Assembly (NCBI RefSeq): GCF_024372725.1
Contig: NZ_VOUA01000029.1
Location: 1 to 52,610, forward strand
Direction of reading: 5' to 3'
DNA length: 52,610 nt
Origin: Methanosarcina sp. KYL-1
GTDB lineage: Archaea; Halobacteriota; Methanosarcinia; Methanosarcinales; Methanosarcinaceae
Every line of letters starts with the position of its first letter. Positions within the stretch are counted from its first letter, which is position 1. Position numbers and translations under genes: made by a program. This document shows, piece after piece, positions 21,855 through 51,961 of the stretch. The notes beneath the pieces are model-generated. The model was not told the DNA's origin. It was given only the letters and a program-made list of their open reading frames with translations, and ran no database searches.

Positions 21855-21864
21855 TTATTTATTA
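21781..21864. repeat. Six tandem 14-bp units TTGATTATTTATTC
   Basis: Copies start at 21781, 21795, 21809, 21823, 21837 and 21851, the last ending TTA. On the minus strand the array begins at the last Asn-Lys codons and TAA stop of aglB (stop at 21857-21855), so it grew from the end of that gene. Confidence 0.92.
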
Positions 21865-24392
21865 TTTGTAGAAAAGTCAAGTTCTATTTTGTTCCCTTCC
21901 ATAACGTCTTTTTCCGTAACCTGTATCCCTAAGGTGCTGTTCTCTCCTGCGGTCAGGGAGTAGGCTGAGACTGCATATACGCCGGTATCAGCGTTAGCTG
22001 CAGTGTTCTCTGTCGGGTAGGGCACGGTAATTTCAAAGTATCCGGCCTCATCGGCAACTGCGCTGTTGTAGTAGGTAAAGTCCCGGCTTCCGGACTTGAG
22101 TTTAAGCTCTGCACGCACCGGCTGGCCCGGGCTTGAAAGGCCCGAAAGGACGGCTCCGGGCACGTATTCGAATACTTTTACCTTGTTTTCCCTGGAGTTT
22201 ACAGTCCTTTTAGTTTCAAGGTCCTCGTCTGTGCTTTCATGGATGAGCCGGAGGTTTCCCAGGTTTGCCCCGTCAAGTTCATGGAGTTTATATATCTCGG
22301 TGTCCAGAAGTTCCTTTTTCGGGGATGCATACGTTTGAAGTCCCGCATTATTTCTTACCGTTTTTATATCGTAATAGTCCTCAATGGTTTTTCCTGCAAA
22401 CCCGGCGATATGCCCGAATTTGCCTCTTGCCATGTAGGTGTCCGTTATCACGTATTTTACGTTGTGTTTGTCAAGGATATCCCTTGCTTCCTGCTCGGAA
22501 TCACTTATTAAAAAGCGTGCTGAGTCTTCAACTCCTGTCTGGAAGTTATTTGAGACCGCTGGCCTTTTTGCCATGTATACGATCCAGTTTCCATAATCCC
22601 ACCAGCTAAGGACTCCGTATTCCGGAATCTCGGCAGGCTCCTGATAATAGGAAGTTTCGGGGCTTGAAGCCTCGAGCCACTGCAGGGATTCCTGCCATTC
22701 TCCTTCAACAACAGTCGTTTCCTTTGAGTACCCGGAAACTATCCATACGGAGGGGCCAAGCAGGATGATGACAAGTGACAGTGCCGAGATAAGCTTGAAA
22801 TAATCGGGATTTGAAGCTTCAATTTTTGATTTTTGGGCTTTGATGGCTCTGGATTTTGTTTTAATCTTTGCTTTTGCTTTTCTTCCGGCTTCCCTGACAG
22901 GTTCAGGTAAATCTACGGGCGCATTTCCAGGCGCATTTCCGGTCCTCTTTAAGGAACTGAACAGTTTATGCACTTCATTTTCGAAATCGAGGGATTCGAA
23001 AAGCGTCATTATGAAGTATGCATTAAGGAATGCCACATTTACGGAAAAAAGGTATGAGTAGCGTCTCTGGGATAAGGTAAGGTATGCGGCAAATACTGTC
23101 CAGAGAAGGAAAAAGACCCTGTCGGACCGGAGTTTTTCACCTTTCCATGCCAGGAGCAGCAAGAAAAACGCTACAAAGGCAACCGGGAAGCAGAGCCAGA
23201 AATTCCCGAGCATCGAAGAAAGGGTGAACTTCCCTTCCGAGGTAAAAAAGAGGGGTTGGGCTTCGGAAATTGAGCCGGTGAATCCCCCTATTCCGGAGAA
23301 GTATTTCACCGCTTCGATTACCAGACCGTAGGTTTCAATCGAAAAGCTCCTGAGGAGGAAAAGCCCTGCGCCTGAAGCCAGCAGAATAAGGGCCGGATAG
23401 TACCTCCAGTCCTGGCCCTTTTTTGAGACGTATATGGAAAATCTTCCCAGCAGGACTACCCCGGCAAGCAGGGCAAGGATGTAAAAAACCTGGAACCAGG
23501 AAAGGAACATAGCACTCATTTCGAGTCCCGGGCGTACGGCTCCGGCACAAATGGGGATGGAAACCAGGAGTGCTGTAAGCAAGCTTGCAGCAGAGCAGAT
23601 GAACAGGTATTCGGATTTTTTGCCGGTTTTCAGGTCAATTGTGGCCTGCACGAAGAAGTAGAGAAGGATAAATCCGATGTAAACGGGAGCCCCGATCCAG
23701 GTAAAGACCAGGAGCGCAAAACAGACACCAGAAGCTCCTGCAAAGGCCACCGGTTCCATGAGCTTCTTTTCTTCAGGAAGGCCCTTGAGGGCTGCAAGGG
23801 AAAGGGATGTTTCCTTTGCCCTTTTCAGGGCAAGTATGAAAAATGCATAGGCAGCCGTTGAGAAAAGCACTTCTGCTACGTGGTGATCAGCCGCCCCGAA
23901 CTGGGATATATATATGTGGACCGGCATAAGCGCAAAAACAGCAGCACTGAGGAAACCTACCTTTCTGTCGAAAAGGGCCGATGCAGCTACATATACAGGA
24001 ATAAGGGTCAGGATTCCCAGCAGCACCGGCAAAAGCGCTCCTGCAAATTCTACGGTGTGTGTATCAGGGTTTCCTGCTCCGAGGACCAGGGCAAGCCCTG
24101 CCCCAAGAAGGTCATAGAGGGGAGGCCAGCTGATTTCAAAACCAAAAGGATAGTTAAGATAGGAGTCAAAATGGAGGTAGTCTGGAAAGTTTGCTGCACT
24201 GTAGAGGATGCGCCGCATGTGGTAGAATGAGTCATAGCCTGCAAAGGTGATGCCTCCGTTTGCGGTGACTGAAGAGTAAGAGAGCATACGCATAAAGAGG
24301 GCAATTGCGAGAACTACAAACAGGGAAATAATTCCAGGTTTAAATTCATGGGTTGAAAGCTTTGACTCCATATGCCTAGTATGTTTGTTCAT
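21855..24392 (-). CDS. aglB: Dolichyl-phosphooligosaccharide-protein glycotransferase AglB (STT3)
   Basis: 845 residues: about 13 membrane helices followed by a soluble C-terminal domain from about 560. The catalytic signature WWDYG is in YGVLSWWDYGNW near 600. Other family motifs: YDSFYHMRRI in the first outer loop, GAADHHVAEV (second acidic motif), SISEAQP near 375 (TIXE-type loop) and MARGKFGHI (K-F-x-x-I site that reads the sequon +2 residue). It transfers lipid-linked glycans to Asn in N-x-S/T outside the membrane. ATG at 24392 follows GGGGTGGTC; a TATA-like ACTATAAATG lies just upstream (plus 24433-24442). It anchors the glycan locus that follows and would modify the sequon-rich surface proteins seen here. 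Confidence 0.93.
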   Translation of the reverse strand: MNKHTRHMESKLSTHEFKPGIISLFVVLAIALFMRMLSYSSVTANGGITFAGYDSFYHMRRILYSAANFPDYLHFDSYLNYPFGFEISWPPLYDLLGAGLALVLGAGNPDTHTVEFAGALLPVLLGILTLIPVYVAASALFDRKVGFLSAAVFALMPVHIYISQFGAADHHVAEVLFSTAAYAFFILALKRAKETSLSLAALKGLPEEKKLMEPVAFAGASGVCFALLVFTWIGAPVYIGFILLYFFVQATIDLKTGKKSEYLFICSAASLLTALLVSIPICAGAVRPGLEMSAMFLSWFQVFYILALLAGVVLLGRFSIYVSKKGQDWRYYPALILLASGAGLFLLRSFSIETYGLVIEAVKYFSGIGGFTGSISEAQPLFFTSEGKFTLSSMLGNFWLCFPVAFVAFFLLLLAWKGEKLRSDRVFFLLWTVFAAYLTLSQRRYSYLFSVNVAFLNAYFIMTLFESLDFENEVHKLFSSLKRTGNAPGNAPVDLPEPVREAGRKAKAKIKTKSRAIKAQKSKIEASNPDYFKLISALSLVIILLGPSVWIVSGYSKETTVVEGEWQESLQWLEASSPETSYYQEPAEIPEYGVLSWWDYGNWIVYMAKRPAVSNNFQTGVEDSARFLISDSEQEARDILDKHNVKYVITDTYMARGKFGHIAGFAGKTIEDYYDIKTVRNNAGLQTYASPKKELLDTEIYKLHELDGANLGNLRLIHESTDEDLETKRTVNSRENKVKVFEYVPGAVLSGLSSPGQPVRAELKLKSGSRDFTYYNSAVADEAGYFEITVPYPTENTAANADTGVYAVSAYSLTAGENSTLGIQVTEKDVMEGNKIELDFSTNNK

Positions 24393-24851
24393 GACGACCA
24401 CCCCGATATGTTTTTTAATTATTCTATCTGCATTTATAGTCTCACTGTATTTTATAGTCTTACATGCAAATATTTTGTTTAAATTCCCAGGTTGAACCTG
24501 AAATATTATTCTCCAGACTACTTATTTAATCTGCCCGATTGTCAAGTTCAATTCTTTGCGTAAATGATTATATCTGAACTTTCAGTGTAAAGTAAAATCT
24601 GTATAGTCGGGTTGTTATTATCACTTAAAATATTTTCCATGGTTTGTTTGACTGTTTTGAAGTTTATATATATTTGTTCTATTTGTACTTGTTCTGGATC
24701 TAAGGAATCTCCCGTTATGTTAATAAATTATCATTTATTATTTAATAGAGGGAAATATTAAATGGGGACTCCATTATGTGTATTTTTTAATATCTTTGTG
24801 AATTTTTCAACATATTTATAAACTTTGAATCTAAAGGGATATTGAATAAAT
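24393..24851. other. AT-rich divergent promoter region
   Basis: 459 bases between aglB and the epimerase gene. The aglB TATA-like site is at 24433-24442 (minus strand). For the epimerase a TATA-like TATTTATAAACT is at 24813-24824, so its leader would be very short. A further TTTATATATAT near 24661 is unassigned. No gene is seen. Confidence 0.5.
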
Positions 24852-32397: not shown

Positions 32398-33687
32398 ATG
32401 ATTGATATTCAGAGTATACGTTTTAAAAGAACAGATTTATTTAAAAATAAAATGTTCAAAGAAACAATGTGGAGTTTTGCTACAAAAGGCATGGCGTTCG
32501 GATTATATTTTATGTTGAATATATATCTCGCCAGAAACTTAGGTGTAGAAAAATTTGGCACCTGGTCTTTATTTTTTTCAATACTCTCCATAATACTTCT
32601 AATATCTTATTTTGGTATTAATGCCTCTGCAATGAAATTTATTGCTCAATATAATAATACTGACAAATTATACTCTGTATTAAAAAGTTCCTTCAAAATA
32701 AGAATTGTATTGAGTTTTGGATTCACATTGCTCTTTTTTTTGACTTATAAACCCTTGTTAACCTTCATAGACAGACAAGACTTAGAGTTTCTTTTATTAA
32801 TTTCTACGCCTTTGATTTTTCTTTGTGGTTTAGTAGAATTCTTAAAATCAGTGTTTATTGGATTGCATCGTGTTAAATATAATTTTATAATAACTAGTTT
32901 AGAATATGGTTTAAAATTTGGAATTGTTGTCCTATATACAAATCTTGCAATGAGCTTTACAGGCATTATAAATTCCTATCTTATTGCAACTTTTATTACC
33001 TCGCTATTTGGGATCTTTATCCTATACAATAACTTTTTTTTACATACTTCTAACAAAACAGACTATAATCTTTCGACTGAAATTTTTCGATACGGCATCC
33101 CTTTATTTTTTGTAAGTATTGGATTCCTCGTTGCAACTGAAATAGATACGATAATGTTAGGTCTTTTGTCAACAGATGGAGAAGTTGGAGTTTATGCTGT
33201 TGCGAAACAAATTGTTATAAAAATTCCTCAAATCAGTATGGCCATTGAAATGGGTACAATGCCTATATTTGCTAAATTGAATCAGGATAATAAAAAAAAT
33301 CTCAAAAGAATATTCGATAAGTTAGTGAGAGCAAATGCTGCAGTAATGTTTTTTATTATTATAGGACTCCTGATGTTTTCCGGGATACTCATCCCGCTAA
33401 TTTTTGGACCAGAATATACAGGTTCTATATTACCATTGAGAATATTAACCTTATATCTTGGATGTGTATCTATATGTGTATTTTTTAATTCATTTTTGAA
33501 TTATCAAGGATTAGCAAAGAAAAGAGCAATTAACTTTTCAATAGCTATAGTATTGAATATTATCTTAAATTATCTTTTGATTCCTAGCTATGGAGCCGTA
33601 GGTGCCTCTATTGCTACATCAATATCATATATACCATATTTTGTTTTGAACTGGATTGAAGTTAATAGAGTATGGGCCCATTATTGA
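32398..33687 (+). CDS. Polysaccharide flippase (Wzx-like, MOP superfamily)
   Basis: 429 residues with 12 or more membrane helices. The N-terminal pattern WSFATKGMAFGLYFMLNIYL followed by ARNLGVEKFGTWSLFFS is the usual start of polysaccharide-biosynthesis exporters, and the C-terminal half has PSYGAVGASIATSISY, typical of the family. It would move the lipid-linked glycan across the membrane for AglB or for a surface polymer. It closes the AT-rich plus-strand run; a second flippase lies at 39575. Confidence 0.85.
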   Translation: MIDIQSIRFKRTDLFKNKMFKETMWSFATKGMAFGLYFMLNIYLARNLGVEKFGTWSLFFSILSIILLISYFGINASAMKFIAQYNNTDKLYSVLKSSFKIRIVLSFGFTLLFFLTYKPLLTFIDRQDLEFLLLISTPLIFLCGLVEFLKSVFIGLHRVKYNFIITSLEYGLKFGIVVLYTNLAMSFTGIINSYLIATFITSLFGIFILYNNFFLHTSNKTDYNLSTEIFRYGIPLFFVSIGFLVATEIDTIMLGLLSTDGEVGVYAVAKQIVIKIPQISMAIEMGTMPIFAKLNQDNKKNLKRIFDKLVRANAAVMFFIIIGLLMFSGILIPLIFGPEYTGSILPLRILTLYLGCVSICVFFNSFLNYQGLAKKRAINFSIAIVLNIILNYLLIPSYGAVGASIATSISYIPYFVLNWIEVNRVWAHY

Positions 33688-33856: not shown

Positions 33857-35680
33857 CTATTCTGTGGTATTTCCAGGAACTGCATTAAAAAGTAATACTT
33901 TGCTGTATCCATCAGGAGATTCATAAACAACCTTATCCATATTTTTTTCCAAAAATTGAAGAAAATCTTCCCTTACATGAACGGTATACAATACGTGAAT
34001 ACTTGCTCCATTTACAAGCAACCATACTTTTTTATCTTTGTTGGATTCAATTATTTCATAAATGTCGTCTGCTTTATTTATTAAAAGTGATCCGTCATCA
34101 GTGTATATAAAATTTCCATTATCAAAAATTGAGTACGTATTCCATCTATCATTTTGATTTAATGTGTAATTGGGTGTTCTCCCTAAATAAAAATATGGAG
34201 CTTCCATAACAGAGATTAAAATATCCTCATTGTTTATTTTTTCCGTAATATATTTAGAAGTAGTTTTGTAGTCGGCTCTGTACGCTGCTACATTAGTAGT
34301 CCTGAACGGATCGTTTGTTATGTCATCACCATAATCAAGTGTTAATATCTCATAAAATGAAGGTTGGATTGAAAATACAAGAATGATTACAATGGATAAA
34401 CTAAGAAACTTTACATAAACCTCGTTTTTAAACAGGATTCTTAGAATTATATATATGCTCGACATAGACAATATTACGAAGAGGCCATCTAAAAACAAGT
34501 ACGTTCGTGGACCTATTACATTCCTGTTTGCGATTTCAAAACCAATAACCGATAGAATGAAAACTAAAGACATATATTCAAAATATGAACATTTTTCCTT
34601 ATTTGATCGGATTATTGGCATTAGTGCGGGAACTATACAAAGAATCGCAAAAAGGGGAAAAAGATAGTATTTTGCTGAAAATTCAAAAAAAGACCATTCT
34701 GGAATTTTAATTAACGGATATGATTTAGGAGCAAGTGTGGGTAAAAGCTGATATGCGAATGTATAATGAACACTAAGAAATTTGTTAAATAAATTGCCAG
34801 AGAGGCAAAAATAGGTTGTTAAACCCAATAAGAAAAAATTGACAGCATTTTTCCTGAGAACAGGCATCTTTTCTTTAGACCTTAGAATGATAAAAAATTC
34901 ATATACAAAATAAGTACCTAGAACGAATATAAATGAGCTTCCAAGCTGAACAGTATGAACCATTATGATACATATCACTAAGGAGGCAATCTTATATTTT
35001 AGATCATTCTTAATAAATCCTTCATATACTGTATAGATTGAGAGCATGTACAAAAAAGAATTCATAATATAAAATCTTGCAAATCTTGAATATTCAAGAT
35101 TATAGGGAGAAAAAGTTAAAAATAGAAGGACCAGTAAACCTACAAATTTGTTCACTTTCCTACCATAATAAAAAGACAGAAATATGATTCCCATACCAAA
35201 AATCACACTTGGAAAACGAAGCCAAAATTCATTCATGTCATAAATAAATGAAAAAACAGCGACAATATAATGGTACGCTACTCCTCTCCAATAGTAATTA
35301 AGTTCAGAGGGATATAGTGGAGCTCCCTCTTCCAAAATTCTTCTAATGACCATCCCTGTGATTCTTTCGTCCCACCAGAGGGAAAGGTCTCCTAACCGAT
35401 AAATTCTCAAAATAAATGAAATAGTTAACAATATAAGTACGGAGGAGCTATACCACCATCCGTCCTTATAACCCCATTTAAGCAAATTGCTCAAAAAAGG
35501 GATCTTACCAATCTTTGGAAATTTTTCATTGAATTCTTTAGTTCTATTCGACTCTTCTGTTTTTTCGACATCATTATTCTCTAGAGTGGATAATCTACTT
35601 AAGTCATCTCGGTATAGGTATAAGGTCAATATTCCAATAAAAGTAGTGATAAAAATGAATTGAGTTGACACATCAGACAC
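33857..35680 (-). CDS. GT-C membrane glycosyltransferase (GT39/ArnT-like)
   Basis: 607 residues. A membrane helix and charged linker come first, then SLWWDERITG near 100, the acidic pair of GT39/PMT-type enzymes, and about ten further membrane helices. A soluble domain from about 455 ends at the C-terminus. Such enzymes take a sugar from a polyprenyl-phosphate carrier and add it to a protein or glycan outside the membrane; donors could come from the GT2 enzymes in this locus. The first ~80 residues resemble those of the 648-residue protein at 36313 (helix, Asp/Glu/Lys linker, KIP-I/F-x-x-L), so the two are paralogues. Convergent with the flippase. Confidence 0.8.
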   Translation of the reverse strand: MSDVSTQFIFITTFIGILTLYLYRDDLSRLSTLENNDVEKTEESNRTKEFNEKFPKIGKIPFLSNLLKWGYKDGWWYSSSVLILLTISFILRIYRLGDLSLWWDERITGMVIRRILEEGAPLYPSELNYYWRGVAYHYIVAVFSFIYDMNEFWLRFPSVIFGMGIIFLSFYYGRKVNKFVGLLVLLFLTFSPYNLEYSRFARFYIMNSFLYMLSIYTVYEGFIKNDLKYKIASLVICIIMVHTVQLGSSFIFVLGTYFVYEFFIILRSKEKMPVLRKNAVNFFLLGLTTYFCLSGNLFNKFLSVHYTFAYQLLPTLAPKSYPLIKIPEWSFFEFSAKYYLFPLFAILCIVPALMPIIRSNKEKCSYFEYMSLVFILSVIGFEIANRNVIGPRTYLFLDGLFVILSMSSIYIILRILFKNEVYVKFLSLSIVIILVFSIQPSFYEILTLDYGDDITNDPFRTTNVAAYRADYKTTSKYITEKINNEDILISVMEAPYFYLGRTPNYTLNQNDRWNTYSIFDNGNFIYTDDGSLLINKADDIYEIIESNKDKKVWLLVNGASIHVLYTVHVREDFLQFLEKNMDKVVYESPDGYSKVLLFNAVPGNTTE

Positions 35681-36124: not shown

Positions 36125-36320
36125 ATGAAAAGCAGGAAAGATCTCTTTATTCTTATTCCTCTTTCTATCTTCTTAATTCTTGCTTTGATAAGGTTCCTGC
36201 GCCCCCTGAACTTCCAGGTAGATGAGACATTCTGCGTCTTTGCAGTCTAATACAAAGATAACTCCTGATCCTCGGGTTTTTCGATTATCCCCGCAAAGAC
36301 CGTCCCTCAATTTCATTCTA
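36125..36320 (+). pseudogene. Remnant of a GT-C membrane glycosyltransferase (N-terminus only)
   Basis: ATG at 36125 opens a 41-codon frame: basic start, one membrane helix (LFILIPLSIFLILALI), then RFLRPLNFQVDETF. The Asp-Glu after the first helix is the GT39/ArnT-type acidic pair. The frame stops at 36250; coding-like sequence continues in another frame to about 36321 (ILGFFDYPRKDRPSISF). This is the first ~65 residues of a lost gene, now overlapping the 3' end of the minus-strand gene at 36313. Confidence 0.55.
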
Positions 36321-38259
36321 ACCTGTAAAGGTACCAGTTTCCAATTGTTTTCTCCAACACAAAGTATTGATCCGGTCTATACTGATTGTAATATTCATCC
36401 ATATCAACAGAATAGTACTCTTCTTGGCCTATGACAGAAAGTATCACATCTGTTCTAACCTGAGGGCTTTCCTCAATTTCATCGACAAACAGATATGTGA
36501 ATTCCTCAAAGTTACCTTCGCCCTCCGAAAGATAATATTTAACACCGCATTGGCTAAAGGTTTCAACGAATCCTGTATCTTTGATACTTTTCTTTATGGT
36601 GGCCTGTTCATCTCCATAAAAGGCATGTCCGCATACCTTTGCGTTGTTATATAAGGAAAATATCCTTGGGGTGGTTTGTGTCCTTAAAATAACATCATTT
36701 TCCCCCAGGTTTTTTTCCAGATATCCGGACATCTCCCTGGTGCCTGGAATATCGTGGTTGAGTGTCTCTTTTGAATCACTATAGGAAGGTAGTATCAAGA
36801 GAAGCACTACTAAAAAAAGGACTAGATTTTTGGAAATTTTGTTAAGCCTGGTTTTTTCGATCAAAAGCAAAATGTAAAGGGAATACAGGATAAGGACCAC
36901 AATAAATACATGTTTGTAGTAGACATGGAAATATATTGCTTTAGAAGCTGCTATCAGGTAAATTGCGCTGGAAAGTGCAAATGCCAGAGTCTCTGTTCTT
37001 GCCTTCTTATAAAATATGCTCAGCACCAAACCGGCGGGAAATACATAAAATAGAACTGCTGGGACGTCTCCTTTAACCATGTTTATTATTTCCAGGTACA
37101 CCCTCCAGTTGAAAATCAGATTTTCATCCGTCAAAAAATCAGCTGCAAGTCTGGTGATCGGATCCTTGATAAGAAAGACTAAAATTAGCGGTAACAGAAA
37201 TATCAAAATATATCTTATATTTTTGCTAATGTTTTCTGCTGCCTTTCTAAATTTGTCGTCGTGTTTTTTTATTAAGTCATAGATTACATATATCAAAAAA
37301 GGCATTAGAAGCAATCTTATAATCCCTTCGATAGGGGTTGTAACAGGAATCGGGTTTATAAGGATTCTGAATAAAAGGGTTGGAAGAATGCTCAAAAATC
37401 CCAGTTTGGCTAGACTGTAAAGGTCACTTTTCTCTTTGAAGAGAATTAATAACGCCAGGGTCGGGAAAATGATCAGCAAAAAGGAATATTTCATCAAAAC
37501 CGATAATCCGCAAAAGAGGTAAGCCAAGTTTTCTTTTTTGTCGAGGTACAGGTTTAGGGCAACAAACATGAATATCAAAGAGGGCAGGTCCATTACCGTC
37601 ACATAAGTCGTTAACTGGAAAACCGGGTTAAAAGCAAGAAGTAAAGTTCCGATTAATGCAATTTTTTTAGTGAATAGTTTGTTGAAAAATCGATATATAA
37701 GATATAGTAGTAATATGCCTAAAATAGTCAACAGGTTTCGGATCAGGATTTCAAGTGGAATGAATTCCGAAAGGGGCATAAAAGGCAAAAAAGTCCATTC
37801 AAAAAAAGGGAAGTAACCTAAACTTCTGGAATAAGTATCCAGGCCATTGAAGATTGAGATGTAAGAGTAGTTCTGATTTAAAAAAGGATTCAAGTATTTA
37901 TACATATTGATGAGATTTGGCAAGTGTGTGGCGTATTTATCACAGTGGGCAACCCCTGCGAAAGAGTAGTTCATATATGGAGCCCTCACAGCGGCAAATG
38001 CTGTGAATACTGCAGCCAGGCCGAAAACAGATGAGCCTTCTTTATAGAATTGTCTTGCCAGAAAGTTTATTATCGGAATTTTGTTCATTGAAGGGTGTTT
38101 TACTTCAAATTTTATTGCTCTTTGTTCTTCTTCCTCTTTTTCTATATCAACTTCATCCTCCGAATTGTACAGCTTGTCCAGTTTCTCACGGTAATGATAA
38201 GAAATCAGGATGCTCAGAAGAGTTATCAGTATGATAATGATAAAGGGGATCGTCGACAT
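36313..38259 (-). CDS. GT-C membrane glycosyltransferase-like protein
   Basis: 648 residues with an N-terminal membrane helix, an acidic linker (EDEVDIEKEEEEQ), a conserved HPSMNKIPIINFL segment, then roughly 12 membrane helices. The first outer loop carries VAHCDKYATHLPNL and YSRSLGYFPFFEWTF, in the place where GT39-like enzymes hold their acidic site, and the C-terminal ~130 residues are soluble. It is probably a glycosyltransferase using lipid-linked sugars outside the membrane. The shared N-terminus ties it to the 607-residue protein. The exact family is uncertain. Confidence 0.7.
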   Translation of the reverse strand: MSTIPFIIIILITLLSILISYHYREKLDKLYNSEDEVDIEKEEEEQRAIKFEVKHPSMNKIPIINFLARQFYKEGSSVFGLAAVFTAFAAVRAPYMNYSFAGVAHCDKYATHLPNLINMYKYLNPFLNQNYSYISIFNGLDTYSRSLGYFPFFEWTFLPFMPLSEFIPLEILIRNLLTILGILLLYLIYRFFNKLFTKKIALIGTLLLAFNPVFQLTTYVTVMDLPSLIFMFVALNLYLDKKENLAYLFCGLSVLMKYSFLLIIFPTLALLILFKEKSDLYSLAKLGFLSILPTLLFRILINPIPVTTPIEGIIRLLLMPFLIYVIYDLIKKHDDKFRKAAENISKNIRYILIFLLPLILVFLIKDPITRLAADFLTDENLIFNWRVYLEIINMVKGDVPAVLFYVFPAGLVLSIFYKKARTETLAFALSSAIYLIAASKAIYFHVYYKHVFIVVLILYSLYILLLIEKTRLNKISKNLVLFLVVLLLILPSYSDSKETLNHDIPGTREMSGYLEKNLGENDVILRTQTTPRIFSLYNNAKVCGHAFYGDEQATIKKSIKDTGFVETFSQCGVKYYLSEGEGNFEEFTYLFVDEIEESPQVRTDVILSVIGQEEYYSVDMDEYYNQYRPDQYFVLEKTIGNWYLYRLE

Positions 38260-39574: not shown

Positions 39575-40933
39575 ATGAAACAGAGCAGTGAAAAACTGGG
39601 ACTCAAGAAAATTGGGATCAATTCCTTTCAGACGATTACACGCCAGAGTCTTTCCATCGTTTTCGGCCTGGGCCTCTACATCCTTCTAGCCCGCATCCTT
39701 GGCCCTGAAGGTAGTGGCCTGTATGCTATGGGTTTGCTCCTCCCTTCTACTCTTGCAACTTTTCTAAATCTTGGCGTGACTTCATCAAACGTTTACTTCA
39801 TTGCTTCAGGAAAAGTTACACCGGTGCAGGCTGCGAAAACGAGCTTTCTGCTATGGGCCGTGTTAAGCTTAATTGGCTGCCTTGCCGCTTCTGCGGTAAT
39901 CATCACTCAGGGTGAAGTCTGGTTTCCGGGAGTGCCGAAATTCTTGCTGTGGCTGGGGACACTGGCATTTCCGGTTATCCTACTCCTGGCATTTTTGGAG
40001 GGTTTCTTTCAGGGAGTCCAGGACTTCAAAAGCTATAATATGTTTCTTTTGCTTGTTCCGGGGTTGACGCTTGTTTTTGCATTAATACTGGTCGGAATCT
40101 TAAGGACGGGAGTTATGGGAGCTCTACTCTCTTTTATCGGAGGGAACGTAGTTGGACTCCTGATCGGGCTGGGTATGCTGCGGTCTCATATAAGGAGAAA
40201 TAAACAAGAAGTGATAGGTTCCGGGTCAAAAAACTATCTTCGGGAATGCCTGAATTACGGCTGGAAATCCCATTTGAGCAACATGCTGGCTTTCGTAAAC
40301 TATAAAGCCGACATTTTTTTAGTAAACTTTTTCCTGTCTCCAGCGGCAACGGGGATCTATTCTATTTCAGTTCTGATTGCGGAGAAATTGTGGATACTTT
40401 CCTATTCCGTAGGTGCAGTAATCCTGCCACACCTCTCGGAACTCCATCAGGAAGAGCAAAAGAGAAAACAACTTACACCTCTGATAGCCCGATGGGTGCT
40501 TTTTGCATCCTCTTTGGGTGCGGCAATTATTGCATTGGTGGCTTTTCCGTTCATTAACCTGCTTTTCGGGAAAGAATTCGCTCCAGCCTTCGGAGCACTC
40601 CTATGGTTGCTTCCCGGTGTGGCAATATATAGCATGGCCCGGGTGCTCTCCAATGATATCGCTGCTCGCGGAAAACCTGAATTGAATTGTTACAATGAGC
40701 TGGTTGTCGTTACCGTAAACGTGCTGGCCAATATAGTCCTGATTCCGAGGTTTGGGATCAAAGGTGCGGCAATTGCTACAAGTATAGCCTATATCCTGGG
40801 TGCAATTACGAAACTGTGGATATACTCGTACGTGAGTAAAAATGAATGGTGGAAACCCATTATTTTTGATTCCTACGATAGGTCTTTTATCAAGGAAAGT
40901 ATTAAATTGGTAATAAAAGCATTTGCCCGATGA
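39575..40933 (+). CDS. Polysaccharide flippase (Wzx-like), second copy in locus
   Basis: 452 residues, 12-14 membrane helices. SIVFGLGLYILLARILGPEG near the N-terminus and IPRFGIKGAAIATSIAYILG near the C-terminus are family hallmarks. It is more GC-rich and clearly different in sequence from the flippase at 32398, so they are unlikely to be recent duplicates. It may serve a separate glycan or lipid carrier. Followed by a 24-bp direct repeat. Confidence 0.87.
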   Translation: MKQSSEKLGLKKIGINSFQTITRQSLSIVFGLGLYILLARILGPEGSGLYAMGLLLPSTLATFLNLGVTSSNVYFIASGKVTPVQAAKTSFLLWAVLSLIGCLAASAVIITQGEVWFPGVPKFLLWLGTLAFPVILLLAFLEGFFQGVQDFKSYNMFLLLVPGLTLVFALILVGILRTGVMGALLSFIGGNVVGLLIGLGMLRSHIRRNKQEVIGSGSKNYLRECLNYGWKSHLSNMLAFVNYKADIFLVNFFLSPAATGIYSISVLIAEKLWILSYSVGAVILPHLSELHQEEQKRKQLTPLIARWVLFASSLGAAIIALVAFPFINLLFGKEFAPAFGALLWLLPGVAIYSMARVLSNDIAARGKPELNCYNELVVVTVNVLANIVLIPRFGIKGAAIATSIAYILGAITKLWIYSYVSKNEWWKPIIFDSYDRSFIKESIKLVIKAFAR

Positions 40934-42296: not shown

Positions 42297-43406
42297 TTAA
42301 ATTACCAGCTCAAGCCTGGTTTTTACCAGGTTTTTCAATTCCCTTATATTAGTTTCAATCTTAAACTTCAAGGCATGGAATTCGGCTTTTTCAGAGTATT
42401 CCCTATATTTATTTTCGTCCTCTAGCAGGGAGATCGCATCTATCCATTTCTCGGGGTCTCCATAGTTTTCAATAAGTATTCCTCCTTCTCCTACTGCTTC
42501 AGGAAGCCCTCCGATTTGGCTTGCAATCGAAGGAATCCCGCAAAAGGCAGCTTCCACGCAGACCCTCCCAAAAGGTTCCGGCCACAGGGAGGGCACGAGC
42601 AGGATTTTTGTTTTTGAATAGAAAGTTTCGGGATGATCTGCCCAGGGCATATATGTGATATTAGGATATTTTGAAAAATCGATGTATTCTGGGTTATGCC
42701 CCACAACCAGGAATTTCTTTTCCGGAAGTTTTCTAACAATTTCTAAAAATGTCTCGATTCCCTTGTGCTTTGAGGCATTGATCAACGTGATGTATTCAGG
42801 GTTTTGCTCTCTAACGCTGATCTCCCTGACGAAAGGATAGATTACGTGGGATTCCACACCAAACCAATCTTTTACAACTGAAGCCATATAATGACTGTTC
42901 GAAAGAATAAGTGATGCTCTGGGAATCCATTCTTTTTCATACCGAAAAACAGCGTTAACAAAATACCTGTAAGGGTTTAGGGAAGAGTAACCATAGCAAA
43001 CCGAACAATTCCTGTTGCAGTTGCTTTCAGGGTTTGCGCAGAGACAGATATGCTCGTAGTTCCGCATGAAGACTATGGAAGGTATCTTTTCTTCATAAGC
43101 TATTTTTATTGTCGGGGCTGCAAAGTCCTGTTGTGTAATAACGAGATCCGGGGAAAAGTTCCTCATTTTCCGGCTTAAGGAACGTTCAAGCTGTTTGAAT
43201 ACGAAGTATTTGTTTAGCATATAGGTATTTGTTTCAAAAAGGGGGATAGAGGATGAGGGAAACGGTACTGCATGAGGGTTTTTTACATGCTTTCCGACTG
43301 TAAGCACTTCATTATTTATACTGAGCCCGGATATGAGTGTTTCAAAAGAAAGTTCTCCTCCCCCCAGCGGGGTAAGGAGATTTTCTTCTGACGCAAAAAT
43401 TTTCAT
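42297..43406 (-). CDS. GT4 glycosyltransferase with Cys cluster
   Basis: 369 residues. The N-terminal ASEENLLTPLGGGELSFETL is a GT4 acceptor-domain loop; the donor site has EPFGRVCVEAAFCGIP (E-x7-E). A cluster C121, C123, C130, C134, C137 (ICLCANPESNCNRNCSVCYG) lies in the acceptor domain and could bind a metal. Its start overlaps the stop of the membrane-protein gene upstream by 4 nt, so it is the third gene of an operon whose other two members are not enzymes I recognise. Confidence 0.83.
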   Translation of the reverse strand: MKIFASEENLLTPLGGGELSFETLISGLSINNEVLTVGKHVKNPHAVPFPSSSIPLFETNTYMLNKYFVFKQLERSLSRKMRNFSPDLVITQQDFAAPTIKIAYEEKIPSIVFMRNYEHICLCANPESNCNRNCSVCYGYSSLNPYRYFVNAVFRYEKEWIPRASLILSNSHYMASVVKDWFGVESHVIYPFVREISVREQNPEYITLINASKHKGIETFLEIVRKLPEKKFLVVGHNPEYIDFSKYPNITYMPWADHPETFYSKTKILLVPSLWPEPFGRVCVEAAFCGIPSIASQIGGLPEAVGEGGILIENYGDPEKWIDAISLLEDENKYREYSEKAEFHALKFKIETNIRELKNLVKTRLELVI

Positions 43407-44548
43407 TCATTTGGCTCCTCATCTGAATCTTCAAGCTTAAGGAAGAAGGCTTTGTTAAGCCCGTAGACCATTAAAGCCACAAGAATCGCTACAGGAATCA
43501 TAATGATGCCAAGCCTGGTGAACATCACAAGCATGATCCCACCCACAAAAATGGACATTGTTACGTTTAATTCCTTTTCATTGCTAATACTTAACAGCAG
43601 GAGGAACATCATCAGGCCTACACCTGCAAGCATCCCAGCAATAAGATAGGTTGCAATGCCTATTTCCGCAACATAAGCGGAAATCATTGCAACAAGTGAC
43701 CTGTAAATTATATATGAAAGCATCAGCACGAAGATGCCTGCAATAATTTCCCTGGGAATCCTGAATGAAACGGTGCTATTCCCATCTCCTGCCTTCTTCT
43801 CCGTTGAAGAATTTGAAAAAGAGGAGGGACTTTTTCTGTTTAATTTGAATTCTATCCCATTGTTCGACTCAGAAATGCCAAAGGGAATGTTCCTGATTAA
43901 TGCCTGAAGTCTCCGATTAATTTTTATCTTTATTGTACGCCTTCTGAGAATCATCAGAACGAAAAGTACAAAACCGAATAATGAGATCCCGATTATGCTT
44001 GAAAAGAGACCGTAGGCAAGCTTTGTTAAATATATAATCTTAATATTGTTCTGTGAAGTTTCAAGCTGTATGACCTTAAAATCGCCTTCGGAATAAATAT
44101 TTTCGTTTTCAAGGAGGACAGGGCCATTAAGATAGAGGACCTTCTCTGCGTTTTCAATGCTTATGGTTACATTTTGTTTCCCTTTTTCAGAAACACGGGG
44201 GTTTGAAAACTCAAGCGTAAATAAACCGTGGCCCTCCGGTCCGGGACTCATGAAGAGTGCATGTAGTTCATTTCCATTTTTAGCGGCCAGAAACTGGATC
44301 CTTTCTTCAGAAACGTTGATCACGGCGGCATCTGACGTATAGGATACGATATCATTTCCATTCTTATATAGTTCAAAAGAATTCCCCAGGTCAGTGGCGA
44401 AGATTTCTCCTTCCCCATACCAGTATCGATTTACGTCCCCTATATCTTCCTGATAATAATTGATGCTGATATTTTCAGAAGCTGAAGCCGCCGAAATCAT
44501 CATGGATAAAAGAATCAAACCACAAATCATGACAGAGTATTTCTTCAT
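43403..44548 (-). CDS. Membrane protein with ectodomain, unknown function
   Basis: 381 residues: a signal peptide (LILLSMMISAASASE), a beta-rich ectodomain to about 175 with several N-x-S/T sequons, one membrane helix (about 180-205, IIGISLFGFVLFVLMIL) followed by RRRTIKIKINRR, a cytoplasmic loop, and four C-terminal helices (265-370). It overlaps both neighbours by 4 nt (44545-44548 and 43403-43406), so production is coupled with the upstream secreted protein and the downstream GT4. It could be the membrane platform of a surface complex. No known family was recognised. Confidence 0.72.
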   Translation of the reverse strand: MKKYSVMICGLILLSMMISAASASENISINYYQEDIGDVNRYWYGEGEIFATDLGNSFELYKNGNDIVSYTSDAAVINVSEERIQFLAAKNGNELHALFMSPGPEGHGLFTLEFSNPRVSEKGKQNVTISIENAEKVLYLNGPVLLENENIYSEGDFKVIQLETSQNNIKIIYLTKLAYGLFSSIIGISLFGFVLFVLMILRRRTIKIKINRRLQALIRNIPFGISESNNGIEFKLNRKSPSSFSNSSTEKKAGDGNSTVSFRIPREIIAGIFVLMLSYIIYRSLVAMISAYVAEIGIATYLIAGMLAGVGLMMFLLLLSISNEKELNVTMSIFVGGIMLVMFTRLGIIMIPVAILVALMVYGLNKAFFLKLEDSDEEPNE

Positions 44549-45636
44549 GTACGGACGACCTCGACAGGTATTTTATAGACATAGGGTTCACTGAATTCAT
44601 TATACCTGACTTTCAGTACAATTGTAGTTTTGACGTATCCGTATTCATCGTTTAAGTTCCGGCACAGGAAGTTCAGGTCCAGATTCTCTCCGGGGCCGAT
44701 TGTGAAGTTACTTTCAAAGGGGACCACAACGTCTCTAAGAATTTCCGGAATCTCAATGGACCCGTACACAGGACTCTTATTGTTTTTATTTTCCAGGGAA
44801 AATTCCACAAAACTTATTTTTCCGTCTTTAAAGGGAATGGAAAACTCGGAGGGCCTGTATGACAATTCTTGCATTTCCTCATTATCTTCAGATTCGATGT
44901 AATTCAGGACAAGATACAAAAGTTCTCGATTTTCATTGAACCTGTAGTTTGTAAGAAAGTCCTTGTTCCCGAGAGCAATTACTTTTCCTTGCCGGAAATT
45001 CTTTGCCATTAATATTGTATGTTCTTCCCCAATTCTTTCTTCTTCAAAGAACAAATCTTTTGAAATCTCGGAACTACCATTTAATCTAAAAGGATTTTCC
45101 TCAAATGCTGTAGACTCCGTATAAACTTTCCATTCTTCCAGGGGGATAGAACAGCCTAAATTTACGGATTTGTTCTTTGAAATGTTAACGTGAGTATTCA
45201 AAAGATATTCTCGTTTGAAATAAATGTCATATGGGTCAAGAATCAGATTGGAATTGAATATGGATTCAGGCGAATCACATATCACAATCAAATTTCCTCC
45301 GTTTTCAACAAAATTCATTAAGTTTGAGGTTTCGGTATTTTCCAGGCTTCTTTTAGGATTAATAATTACAACGAGGTCAGATTCCTGCAAATTCGATTCA
45401 GCTAAATAGCCAAAGTTAGAGTTAGTCATAGAATTGTCATTTACAACATACCCTAAACTTTCAAGACCTCCTGCAAGTTCACTGAAACCGGCCGGTCCTG
45501 AGTTTTGAAGCCCGAAAAAACCTTTTGTTGAAAGATCAAAGAATATATGATTTCCTTCTTCTGAACCAGCTATCACGGGAGAAGGGATCAAGAATATGAT
45601 GAAGATTAGAAATATGGACCTCTTTGTCGTATTCAT
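44545..45636 (-). CDS. Secreted/membrane-anchored protein with DUF4350/GATase-like domain
   Basis: 363 residues from ATG 45636, preceded by GGGGTG; a GTG at 45648 has no such site. A signal peptide (SIFLIFIIFLIPSPVIAG) is followed by a Rossmann-like domain: HIFFDLSTKGFFGL, LAGGLESLGYVVN, ESDLVVIINPKRSL and MNFVENGGNLIVICDSPES. This is the arrangement of DUF4350/glutamine-amidotransferase-like folds, without an evident catalytic Cys. The C-terminal ~120 residues look like a beta-sandwich (FSLENKNNKSPVYGSIEIP). There is no C-terminal membrane helix, so it may be released or bound to the next gene's product. The family call is tentative. Confidence 0.65.
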   Translation of the reverse strand: MNTTKRSIFLIFIIFLIPSPVIAGSEEGNHIFFDLSTKGFFGLQNSGPAGFSELAGGLESLGYVVNDNSMTNSNFGYLAESNLQESDLVVIINPKRSLENTETSNLMNFVENGGNLIVICDSPESIFNSNLILDPYDIYFKREYLLNTHVNISKNKSVNLGCSIPLEEWKVYTESTAFEENPFRLNGSSEISKDLFFEEERIGEEHTILMAKNFRQGKVIALGNKDFLTNYRFNENRELLYLVLNYIESEDNEEMQELSYRPSEFSIPFKDGKISFVEFSLENKNNKSPVYGSIEIPEILRDVVVPFESNFTIGPGENLDLNFLCRNLNDEYGYVKTTIVLKVRYNEFSEPYVYKIPVEVVRT

Positions 45637-45721
45637 CAAACACCCCACGAGGATCAGCCTTTATTTTTACAGGAAACTTATGCAATTCTCCGGTGGAGAA
45701 TGCCATTTAATGTCAGGTCAT

Positions 45722-46831
45722 TTATTTAATGTCAGACCCCTTATAGTTGTTATTCACCTTATTTATAGCTTCAAGCATCTTTGCAATAAATATTGATTTA
45801 TCGAACATTTTTGCCCTCTCAATACAGGAAGCCTTATACTTCTCAGGATTTTCAGAAATAACCCTGATAGCTTCAATTATATTTTCGACATCCGGTATTG
45901 TCAGTACTCCTGTCTCCCCATTGACCACGCTTTCGAGGTATCCACCCTCGTTTACTGCTACTACGGGTTTCCCTGCTGCCATGGCTTCAATAGCTGTCAT
46001 ACCGAAATCTTCATTCATGGCAGTTGTAATATGCCCTTTACATCTGGAGTATAAATCCAGCAGTTCTTCTTCCGAGATGCTTCCTATCAAGCTTACGTTC
46101 CCCGGAAGGTTTGACATCAATTTGGATTCGTATTCAGACGCTTTATAACCATTTACATAGCCCCCCACAATAATCAATTTTTCATCGGGCATACGTCTGA
46201 AGGCTTCGATCTGCAGTTCCACGCGTTTTTCAGCATACAAACGGTTTACAGACAGCCAGAAATCTCCGCATTCATTAAAAGTAAACTTTGAAGTATCAAC
46301 CGGAGGATAAATTACAGTTGAATCTCTTAGAAGATATTTCTTAATCCTGCGCTGGGTATTGAGGGAGTTTGTAGCAATCATGCATACATTGGATAGAGAT
46401 ATTTCATATAACTCCCGATTTATTTTTGCCCAAAATATAAACGGCAGAGAAGACAAAACGGAATACTTTTGCTTGAAAAAATCGTAAAGATCATAAAATA
46501 TTCTTGCCGGAGTATGGCAATAAAAGATGTTTGGTTTATGCTTTCTTGCAGAGAAATGAGCCCAATTTCCGGAAAAAATAAAAAAATCGTATTCCTTTGA
46601 AAAATCGCACATTGAATACTTAAATAGAGCCACGGTTTGCTTAAGGCCGGGCAATTTCGGCGTTTCTCCCAGGCTTATTATGGTTATATCTTCGTATCCC
46701 ATTTTTTCAACGGCTTCAGTATCCAGGTCCGTAGTAATAACGTCTGCATTAAGTCCCCTTGCAAGTGTGAATATTAATTTTTCACCACCACCTATCGCGC
46801 CGACAAAATCATGGAAGATTGCAATCCTCAT
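45722..46831 (-). CDS. GT4 glycosyltransferase (WbaZ-like mannosyltransferase)
   Basis: 369 residues. MRIAIFHDFVGAIGGGEKLI, then NIFYCHTPARIFYDLYDFF and WLSVNRLYAEKRVELQIEAF, match the WbaZ/mannosyltransferase branch; the E-x7-E site is NEDFGMTAIEAMAAGKP. It probably adds mannose from GDP-mannose. 85 bp upstream of the three-gene overlapped operon on the same strand, so possibly cotranscribed. Confidence 0.87.
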   Translation of the reverse strand: MRIAIFHDFVGAIGGGEKLIFTLARGLNADVITTDLDTEAVEKMGYEDITIISLGETPKLPGLKQTVALFKYSMCDFSKEYDFFIFSGNWAHFSARKHKPNIFYCHTPARIFYDLYDFFKQKYSVLSSLPFIFWAKINRELYEISLSNVCMIATNSLNTQRRIKKYLLRDSTVIYPPVDTSKFTFNECGDFWLSVNRLYAEKRVELQIEAFRRMPDEKLIIVGGYVNGYKASEYESKLMSNLPGNVSLIGSISEEELLDLYSRCKGHITTAMNEDFGMTAIEAMAAGKPVVAVNEGGYLESVVNGETGVLTIPDVENIIEAIRVISENPEKYKASCIERAKMFDKSIFIAKMLEAINKVNNNYKGSDIK

Positions 46832-48212: not shown

Positions 48213-48239
48213 GGCAGAAATGAAACTCAGGGGCAAAAA

Positions 48240-49462: not shown

Positions 49463-49594
49463 TTTTCCTTATTTTTGCTCCTTATTTTAGTAAACTTTTC
49501 CTTATTTTTGCTCCTTATTTCAGTAAACTTTTCCTTATTTTTGTTCCTTATTTTCAGTAAATTTTCCTTATTTTATCCTTATTTAGGCAAGTTT
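49463..49594. repeat. 33-bp tandem repeat overlapping a gene end
   Basis: TTTTCCTTATTTTTG begins at 49463, 49496, 49529 and 49562, a constant 33-base period, with degenerate units beyond. The array extends into the 3' end of the minus-strand GT4 gene (stop 49581-49579), whose last 15 codons (KLTEIKTKIRKNLPK) match the repeat. 33 bp is 11 codons. Confidence 0.88.
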
Positions 49595-50826
49595 TTCCTT
49601 ATTTTTGTTTTTATTTCAGTTAATTTTCCATAGTGTGAGAGGATTTTTACAAAAGCCTCGTCCCAACCATATTTTTCAGCCTTGAGAAAGGCAGAAACAG
49701 ACATTTCTCCATATGATGAATTTCCCTCATCTCCCTTCATCTCATCTCCCTTAATTACTCTCTTCACCCCTTCTGCAATCTCTCTTTCCCCCAGCCCCAC
49801 AATAAACCCGTCAACGCCATCTTCTACCAGCCCCTGCGCTGCGTTATACTTCTCCTTAACCGTCACCACCGGCACCCCGCAGGCAAACGCCTCGATCACC
49901 ACCATCCCGAAGCCCTCCCTGGAAGAAGGCAGCACGAATACTTTTGAGGCTTTTATTTTTCCTATGAGGGCTTCATACTCCTGAAAACCCGCAAACTCCA
50001 CAATCTCCTGCATGCCGGTTTCATCCGCAAGTTTCTCAAGCGCTGCTTTTTCAGGCCCGTCCCCCACAATGCAGCACCTGAGAGCCGGAAAGTCGTCTTT
50101 CAGGAGAGCTACCGCTTTGATCAGGACACCGACGTTTTTTTCTTTAATGAGCCGCCCGGCAAAAATGACATCATAACGTTTTCCTTCCTGCTCAACAGAA
50201 ACCCGGCATCTTTCCGTTCCAGCAGAAGCCCGGCATCCTTTCGCTTCGATCCCGGAAATCCTTTTAAGATCGATCCCGTTTGAGACTACCTTTATCTTAT
50301 CCTCAGGGACTCCAAGAGTTTCAAGCCTTTTCTTTGTCCAATCAGAAACCGCTATATTATCCGCGGAAATCTTTGCGACCGCGTATTCTACCATTTTTCC
50401 GAAAAACCCGGCTCTTCCCAGGTATTCATACCAGTAATCGTCCCAGACTTCATGCCAGGTATAGACTGCAGGGCTCTTTTTTAAAACCGAGACCGCTTTT
50501 ACGGTAAAACAGGAAAAATAAGGAAAGACGCTCACATCAATAATATCGAAGTTTTCTTTCCGGAGAGGGTAGAACAGTTTTGCGGCAAACAACAGGGCTT
50601 CGGAAATAGAACGCTTTCCACCAACGTAGAGGTCCCTGGCTTTGCAGACTCCGTGCAGGGTCATGCCCTCATATTCAAGAACATCTTCGCCTTCCCACCA
50701 CTTGATTCCGAAGAGGTGCACTTCGTCCCCGCGGGCTGCCAGGCGCTTTCCAAGCTCATGAATGCGCATTTCTGCGCCGCCTTTGACCCAGGGGTAGACA
50801 GCGTCGTAGACGAAGGCGATTTTCAT
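49579..50826 (-). CDS. GT4 glycosyltransferase
   Basis: 415 residues from ATG 50826 (MKIAFVYDAVYPWVKGGAEM); nine extra open codons upstream are not family-like. Donor site VIFAGRLIKEKNVGVLI and the E-x7-E motif SREGFGMVVIEAFACGVP. A short charged insert (about 190-215) and the repeat-derived basic tail KTKIRKNLPK are unusual. It starts 4 bp after the stop of the GT2 gene, so they form an operon. Adds a sugar to the surface glycan; sugar unknown. Confidence 0.88.
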   Translation of the reverse strand: MKIAFVYDAVYPWVKGGAEMRIHELGKRLAARGDEVHLFGIKWWEGEDVLEYEGMTLHGVCKARDLYVGGKRSISEALLFAAKLFYPLRKENFDIIDVSVFPYFSCFTVKAVSVLKKSPAVYTWHEVWDDYWYEYLGRAGFFGKMVEYAVAKISADNIAVSDWTKKRLETLGVPEDKIKVVSNGIDLKRISGIEAKGCRASAGTERCRVSVEQEGKRYDVIFAGRLIKEKNVGVLIKAVALLKDDFPALRCCIVGDGPEKAALEKLADETGMQEIVEFAGFQEYEALIGKIKASKVFVLPSSREGFGMVVIEAFACGVPVVTVKEKYNAAQGLVEDGVDGFIVGLGEREIAEGVKRVIKGDEMKGDEGNSSYGEMSVSAFLKAEKYGWDEAFVKILSHYGKLTEIKTKIRKNLPK

Positions 50827-50830
50827 TATT

Positions 50831-51961
50831 TCACCAGTCGGCGTCCGTATCAAGGAGCATTACGCTTACAAAGATTGCAGAAAAAATCAGCTGGAACCCA
50901 ACTGCCGCAAGGACCATTGAAATAACTGCGGATTCCACCTCTTCAAGAGACCCGTATCCGGAAATAATCCAGTTGTAGGCAACTTTCAGCCCGAGGATGA
51001 GGCCGGAGCCCAGGATAAGGGAGCCTCCAAGCAGTTCTTTTTCAAGGGAATGGTAGCTCAGCCATTTTTTAGAACTGCCGTTATTATTCTTGTAGATCCC
51101 GTGGATCAGGCCGTATGTTTTCATATACCCGCCAGTGGCCAGGATTTGCCCGCCAATGATTAAGAGCATGCTGCCTAAAATGAAGGAGTGAAGCCTGTTT
51201 ACGACGGCGTTTCCTGTCAGCAGGAGGGTTGTAGTTATGAGAAAACCGAGGATGAAGACAAAAGCTCCGGGAAGGTAGAGGAAAGGTATCGGGCGGTACA
51301 GCATCATGAACCGTACATGCCGCCATCCGTCCCGGAAGGAGCGCAGTTTGGAGGGGGCTTTTCGTGAGTAGTAACTTATAGGGACTTCCTTTATCCTGAG
51401 CCCGCTTTTTGCGGCTTCTATTATCATTTCGGATGCCAGTTCCATGCCGTGGGTCTTGAGGTTCATATTTTCAAGGGCTTCTTTCGTAAAGGCCCTCATC
51501 CCACAGTGGGCATCCGAGATCTCTGTCTTGAAAAGCAGGTTAAGCATGCCTGTGAGGAGGGGGTTTCCGATGTACTGGTGCAGCCAGGGCATGGCTCCTT
51601 TCTTGATATCACCTTTGAGCCGCGTACCTATTACGAAATCCGCTTCACCTTTCATAAGAGGGTCCAGAAATCCCGGCAGCTCCAGCAGGTCATAGGTATT
51701 GTCGGCATCCGCAATAGCTATGTAGTCCCCGCTTGCATACGCAAGTCCCGTTAGATACGCATTCCCGTACCCCTTGATAGGGCCGAGCACCTTTGCCCCC
51801 ATGGATGCCGCAATTTCGGCGGTCCTATCCGAAGAATTGTCAGCAACAATTACCTCCCCTTCAATCCCATATTTATTGAATACTGTATGGGCTTTTTCTA
51901 TGCATGTCCGGATAGTTTCTTCTTCATTCATCGAAGGCATTACGATGGAAAGGGAGGGCAT
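50831..51961 (-). CDS. GT2 glycosyltransferase with C-terminal membrane helices
   Basis: 376 residues. SIVMPSMNEEETIRTCI, IVADNSSDRTAEIA and IADADNTYDLLE (DxD) mark a GT2 catalytic domain; DAHCGMRAFTKEAL is typical of polyprenyl-phosphate sugar transferases. The C-terminal ~150 residues contain four membrane helices (about 230-255, 262-285, 310-335, 345-370). It likely makes a lipid-linked monosaccharide at the cytoplasmic face, a third enzyme of this type in the locus, so several lipid-linked donors may be used. First gene of a two-gene operon. Confidence 0.87.
   Translation of the reverse strand: MPSLSIVMPSMNEEETIRTCIEKAHTVFNKYGIEGEVIVADNSSDRTAEIAASMGAKVLGPIKGYGNAYLTGLAYASGDYIAIADADNTYDLLELPGFLDPLMKGEADFVIGTRLKGDIKKGAMPWLHQYIGNPLLTGMLNLLFKTEISDAHCGMRAFTKEALENMNLKTHGMELASEMIIEAAKSGLRIKEVPISYYSRKAPSKLRSFRDGWRHVRFMMLYRPIPFLYLPGAFVFILGFLITTTLLLTGNAVVNRLHSFILGSMLLIIGGQILATGGYMKTYGLIHGIYKNNNGSSKKWLSYHSLEKELLGGSLILGSGLILGLKVAYNWIISGYGSLEEVESAVISMVLAAVGFQLIFSAIFVSVMLLDTDADW

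Follow-up and report, generated by a model that had tools for sequence, protein, structure and literature searches.

The archaeal oligosaccharyltransferase AglB is treated as a single-subunit enzyme. For Wbp1 and Swp1 (OST48 and ribophorin II), which make up subcomplex III of the oligosaccharyltransferase (OST), action on the lipid-linked glycan has been suggested, and the GIFT fold of Wbp1 has been proposed to bind sugar (PMC7226087). Among prokaryotes this subcomplex has been reported only from Heimdallarchaeia (Eme et al. 2023, PMC10307638), and Lombard recognised no convincing prokaryotic candidates for it (PMC4973528). GIFT-like domains are also found in GldG/ABC_transp_aux proteins and in archaeal DUF4350 proteins of arCOG01314, the latter in a MoxR/vWA context predicted to represent a secretion complex (Makarova et al., PMC5898192). 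Here we compare with these systems a pair of extracytoplasmic and membrane proteins from archaeal glycan loci; we found no paper in the literature describing it.

The stretch of DNA analysed (the window; 52,610 nucleotides) is the full contig C29 from the 4.04 Mb genome of Methanosarcina sp. KYL-1. Its relevant features are as follows.

44545..45648, minus strand: secreted protein of GIFT/DUF4350 fold (GIFT protein), ATG start at 45636, ORF intact
43403..44548, minus strand: membrane partner with five transmembrane (TM) helices (5TM protein), ORF intact
42297..43406, minus strand: family-4 glycosyltransferase with a five-cysteine cluster (GT4c), ORF intact
45722..46831, minus strand: conserved core glycosyltransferase directly upstream of the pair (GT4b)
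49579..50853, minus strand: core glycosyltransferase kept with the pair in Archaeoglobus too (GT4a)
50831..51961, minus strand: AglJ-like GT2, TIGR04182 170.9 bits, below the cut-off of 325
39575..40933, plus strand: Wzx-type (Polysacc_synt) flippase
36313..38259, minus strand: GT-C-like polytopic protein (PMT_2), probable extracytoplasmic glycosyltransferase
33857..35680, minus strand: GT-C-like polytopic protein, weak Agl23 match (TIGR03663, 35 bits, cut-off 126)
32398..33687, plus strand: second Wzx-type (Polysacc_synt) flippase
21855..24401, minus strand: AglB, in the same locus, TIGR04154 727.6 bits, cut-off 450

The first three genes had been described in a sequence-only reading as joined by two 4-nt overlaps and as encoding an exported DUF4350-type protein, a five-helix membrane protein with a sequon-bearing ectodomain and a GT4 with a five-cysteine cluster. 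Each of these descriptions held: ORF reading gives three intact frames with a 4-nt ATGA overlap at both junctions, and the family, topology and motif assignments are borne out below. The fixed-ratio complex read from the overlaps does not follow from them, as 4-nt overlaps alone do not show a ratio and are ordinary in operons. Nor do the three proteins form one unit as had been proposed; what is conserved as a unit is the pair of genes for the GIFT and 5TM proteins, and not the trio. The GT4c motif CLCANPxSNCxRxCSVC, with its five cysteines, is kept in all four orthologues, and coupling of GT4c to the pair through ATGA is seen only in the window and in a sister genus, g17. Because GT4c is absent beside the pair in Archaeoglobus and in G134, a genome of the same family, it is lineage-specific and lies outside the conserved unit, and a conserved three-gene unit was rejected.

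The same reading had called for a neighbourhood search. When 393 genomes of the phylum were searched with profiles, full-length 5TM proteins scored 508-580 bits and full-length GIFT proteins 505-551 bits, and both came from one set of seven genomes: the window's, three of g17, G134 and two Archaeoglobus. The taxa with the pair, Methanosarcinaceae and Archaeoglobus, are thus methanogenic and sulfate-reducing archaea. Many other archaeal DUF4350 proteins score just 18-56 bits against the GIFT profile, and 5TM matches below about 20 bits (G408, G067, G062 and G352) were counted as chance. In all seven genomes the two genes are adjacent, in the same order and joined by an ATGA junction; conservation of homologous full-length pairs in this arrangement is therefore more than chance. 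Denser sampling added none (5/112 genomes of the family, 5/238 of the class and 2/55 Archaeoglobaceae, with one 19-bit fragment set aside). An alignment-based scan of genome contigs returned three loci, all already known, while a protein-only scan of genome contigs and scans of viral contigs and plasmids found no pair.

A pair usually located away from glycan genes had been named as grounds for abandoning the sequence-only reading. It passed this test, since all seven pairs were found within glycan loci, five of them in the same locus as AglB. The window itself is an archaeal N-glycosylation (Agl) locus, with AglB above its model cut-off and the AglJ-like GT2, which likely starts the lipid-linked glycan, below. 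A module of AglJ-like GT2, GT4a and AglB is common to Archaeoglobus and Methanosarcinaceae. The gene order in Archaeoglobus G200 is GT4a, AglJ-like GT2, AglB, GIFT, 5TM; in Archaeoglobus G141 two GT4 genes separate AglB from the pair. In g17 the order is AglJ-like, GT4a, GT4b, GIFT, 5TM, GT4c, with AglB 15-18 kb off, and in the window AglB lies 20 kb from the pair. G379 carries pair and AglB on different contigs, and in G134 some 1.6 Mb separate the pair from the sole AglB found. AglB is not dependent on the pair, since within the window's genus orthologous AglB is present in 31/31 genomes and the pair in 1/31, that of the window. Archaeoglobus shows the same at short range: the AglB of G146, 90 % identical to that of G200, has no pair. 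DNA identity between G200 and G146 is 94 % through the end of AglB and on into the nucleotidyltransferase gene behind it, of which G200 keeps the initial 40 nt before switching into the GIFT gene (seam AAGAGGTTAAG/ACGAGGTTGAG, L015:6735-6780 compared with L131 and L133). The GIFT reading frame of G200 thus opens with codons borrowed from the start of this nucleotidyltransferase gene, which in relatives comes after AglB. With 94 % identity up to the seam, the pair in G200 has therefore recently been swapped in beside AglB. The pair as such can safely be regarded as an extracytoplasmic element of archaeal glycan loci that is both conserved and swappable.

The GIFT protein consists of a signal peptide, a GIFT domain (residues ~33-258) and a PapD/MSP-like beta-sandwich (~260-367), with no C-terminal TM helix; each of the seven GIFT proteins carries a single hydrophobic segment, at its N-terminus, and no other TM. 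The sequence-only reading had placed two members of the operon in no known glycan family. This stands for the 5TM protein, which has no Pfam or NCBIfam family, but not for the GIFT protein, which belongs to Pfam DUF4350 (PF14258; 38.8 bits against a gathering cut-off of 30.4). The orthologues in L012 (31.0 bits) and L015 (32.2) also exceed this cut-off, and those in L016 (26.4) and L017 (29.1) fall below it. Residues D125, N240 and E106 are invariant, control DUF4350 proteins included, and N134 and N234 are nearly invariant across those controls; GFFG (43-46), NPxR (97-100) and CDxP (124-127) are signatures of the pair family. Matches to ABC_transp_aux (E 1.5e-5), IFT52_GIFT and OST48_N were sub-threshold. 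The structural model is of low confidence (pLDDT 56.5); its one well-modelled part is the C-terminal domain, whose PapD/MSP-like beta-sandwich (Z ~13) also accounts for most Foldseek matches. Residues 33-257, in the low-confidence N-terminal half, align with the GIFT domain of IFT52 (Z 14.3, rmsd 3.2, 171 residues), and for this half a VIA-align search added IFT52 and site-one protease, WBP1 not being among the 50 matches listed.

These data bear on whether the archaeal pair is truly homologous to OST48-ribophorin II (Wbp1-Swp1) and serves as a standing subunit of AglB. Like subcomplex III, it combines a secreted GIFT domain followed by a further extracytoplasmic domain with a multi-TM partner, may recruit lipid-linked glycan, and in Archaeoglobus adjoins AglB, the counterpart of STT3. 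OST48_N (PF03345) matches the window's GIFT protein with E 2.7e-4, and a profile search of PDB sequences places WBP1 as third entry (E 0.05), at the G-x-x-DFLxN motif. The OST48_N score is however 20.7 bits, below the cut-off of 36, falling to 14.9 in L015 with no match in L016 or L017; an unrelated DUF4350 control, L061, matches comparably (7.5e-4), and IFT52 (6e-5 in the PDB search) and DUF4350 match better. As the family score fails, the C-terminal TM is missing and the control scores alike, we do not file the GIFT protein as OST48. The 5TM protein is not detectably Swp1: it has no match in Pfam, NCBIfam or PDB sequences, and its model, at pLDDT 50, does not support a comparison of folds. 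The AglB distribution described above, with 30/31 orthologues in the genus and that of G146 lacking the pair, rejects an obligate AglB subunit, and we consider it highly improbable that the pair is a true OST48-ribophorin II homologue and standing part of AglB.

With DUF4350 as best family match, the pair might instead be a surface secretion or membrane-remodelling complex like that predicted for arCOG01314 (PMC5898192), present in glycan loci by chance. The two share a GIFT-like extracytoplasmic domain and a signal peptide, and the MoxR context is seen here too, since most of the control DUF4350 proteins examined carry a C-terminal TM and lie next to a MoxR-type gene, MoxR being confirmed beside L042. 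Unlike the arCOG01314 proteins, the GIFT proteins of the pair have no C-terminal TM (0/7), carry the PapD/MSP-like second domain and come with a dedicated five-TM partner. No MoxR AAA ATPase or vWA protein was recognised among the BLAST- or Pfam-typed neighbours of the pair, and a location in glycan loci in all seven cases sits poorly with chance, making this explanation very unlikely. The GldG model (TIGR03521) gives 14.5 bits against a cut-off of 389.85, and home-made profiles recognised no ABC transporter partner in the pair loci. A further archaeal GIFT/ABC_transp_aux family (L043-L048), also without a C-terminal TM, occurs in tandem with an S49-type peptidase.

A different relationship emerges from the genes that the pair replaces. 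In relatives without it, genes for ABC2_membrane and ABC_tran/Wzt proteins, i.e. a Wzm-Wzt glycan exporter, adjoin GT4b. Reading the gene after GT4b in 30 loci gave the pair in 4, Wzm-Wzt in 17, AglB in 6 and other genes or a contig end in 3; Wzm-Wzt thus directly follows GT4b in 17/26 loci other than the pair-bearing ones. We surveyed 35 loci, which differ in length and were typed by home-made profiles. Wzm-Wzt was present in 0/7 loci with the pair and 21/28 without (Fisher p 5e-4), and these profiles found no ABC transporter in the seven pair loci. Wzx-type flippases were present in 7/7 and 3/28 respectively (p 2e-5), a contrast that is partly circular, with absence elsewhere perhaps overstated, because pair-bearing loci had served to train the Wzx profile. 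Other polytopic proteins of at least 500 amino acids, several of which match PMT_2 weakly and are GT-C-like, occur in 6/7 and 3/28 (p 3e-4). With the pair genomes collapsed to four lineages p is 0.009 for Wzm-Wzt and 0.001 for Wzx, the pair-negative loci being left uncollapsed and mostly from one genus. Wzx loci without the pair also occur (G415 and G126). The pair likely belongs to loci that flip lipid-linked glycan by Wzx and do not export it by Wzm-Wzt. The role near glycan export entertained in the sequence-only reading is thereby supported as to context, the Methanosarcinaceae pair occupying the Wzm-Wzt slot of relatives; a role in sensing the glycan is unsupported.

Occupation of exactly that slot after GT4b in Methanosarcinaceae, together with the absence of Wzm-Wzt genes from pair loci, would also be expected if the pair took part in translocation itself, as a flippase helper or as an alternative exporter in place of Wzm-Wzt. 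The two share the slot but neither sequence nor domain similarity; the pair has no ATPase, its TM helices have no conserved charged residue and Wzx-type flippases are already present in all pair loci, so that we regard translocation as improbable. The same exporter-slot, Wzx and polytopic context, and a membrane protein with a large extracytoplasmic domain, would suit control of polymerisation or chain length of an extracytoplasmic glycan. Wzz exerts such control in Wzx/Wzy systems, and a Wzz-like pair would be missing where ABC export moves finished chains. Neither protein is similar to Wzz in Pfam or NCBIfam, however, the topology of five TM helices plus a secreted partner differs, and no polymerase (Wzy) family was recognised in pair loci; chain-length control appears fairly improbable.

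The 5TM protein comprises a signal peptide, as its N-terminus resembles one, a beta-rich ectodomain (residues ~24-175) with sequons at 26, 78 and 126 and an invariant WYGxGE, five TM helices and a cytoplasmic loop (~202-265). The five helices are present in its model, which is otherwise poor and was left out of the fold search. Invariant residues in the TM helices are few and none is charged, which suits an adaptor more than it does an enzyme or a transporter. The GIFT protein needs an anchor, because no TM follows its signal peptide, and we infer that the 5TM protein is the membrane anchor of the pair.

Location in glycan clusters and the frequent use of the ABC-exporter slot suggest that the pair acts outside the cell, helping to complete lipid-bound sugar chains or to pass them on. 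The reading we prefer, tentatively and at somewhat less than even confidence, is that the GIFT and 5TM proteins form an extracytoplasmic accessory complex of Wzx-type N-glycan loci which hands over the lipid-linked glycan. The 5TM protein would provide the anchor and the soluble GIFT protein would dock on its ectodomain. A Wzx-type flippase would move short lipid-linked glycans across the membrane, and GT-C enzymes would extend or decorate them outside, in place of export of finished chains by Wzm-Wzt. The putative complex would probably bind the outward-facing lipid-linked glycan, its presumed ligand by analogy with the action suggested for Wbp1-Swp1, and probably pass it between flippase, GT-C enzymes and oligosaccharyltransferase before transfer. 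In a broader version, which we consider rather unlikely, the pair would act on lipid-linked glycan at the outer membrane face and be the first such accessory complex to be recognised beyond the Asgard archaea. It would match Wbp1-Swp1 in function, having been assembled separately around a GIFT protein of the DUF4350 type, and would mark a flip-then-finish mode of N-glycosylation exchangeable with ABC export. If a GIFT pair does belong to Wzx-type N-glycan loci, the roles of GIFT domains near oligosaccharyltransferases could be tested outside the Asgard archaea, and the swap of ABC for Wzx would let the effect of export mode on methanogen surface glycans be followed as a natural experiment.

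The glycan loci contain a number of further features. GT4b and GT4a are direct neighbours in g17, but in the window inverted genes for a GT-C-like and a GT2-GtrA protein separate them (47025-49406, plus strand). The arrangement suggests insertion of an extracytoplasmic module for side-chain glycosylation, for which three-component systems provide a comparison (PMC11127046). We did not find a single conserved 600-aa GT-C partner common to all pair loci. The GT-C-like proteins at 33857-35680, 36313-38259 and L012:15599-17548 share ~40 % identity over their N-terminal 55-206 residues and no BLAST similarity beyond, suggesting from sequence comparison a mosaic exchange of the non-N-terminal parts. 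In the pair loci of both G200 (L015:12592-15554) and G134 (L017:13650-16677), a GT4 gene lies beside one for an unannotated polytopic protein of 630 aa; between the two loci the GT4 proteins are 56 % identical and the polytopic proteins 33 %. A PaaK/F390-synthetase-like CoA ligase gene lies within the glycan locus of the window (27994-29391, plus strand), and g17 has two copies (L067:920-2266 and 3378-4748).
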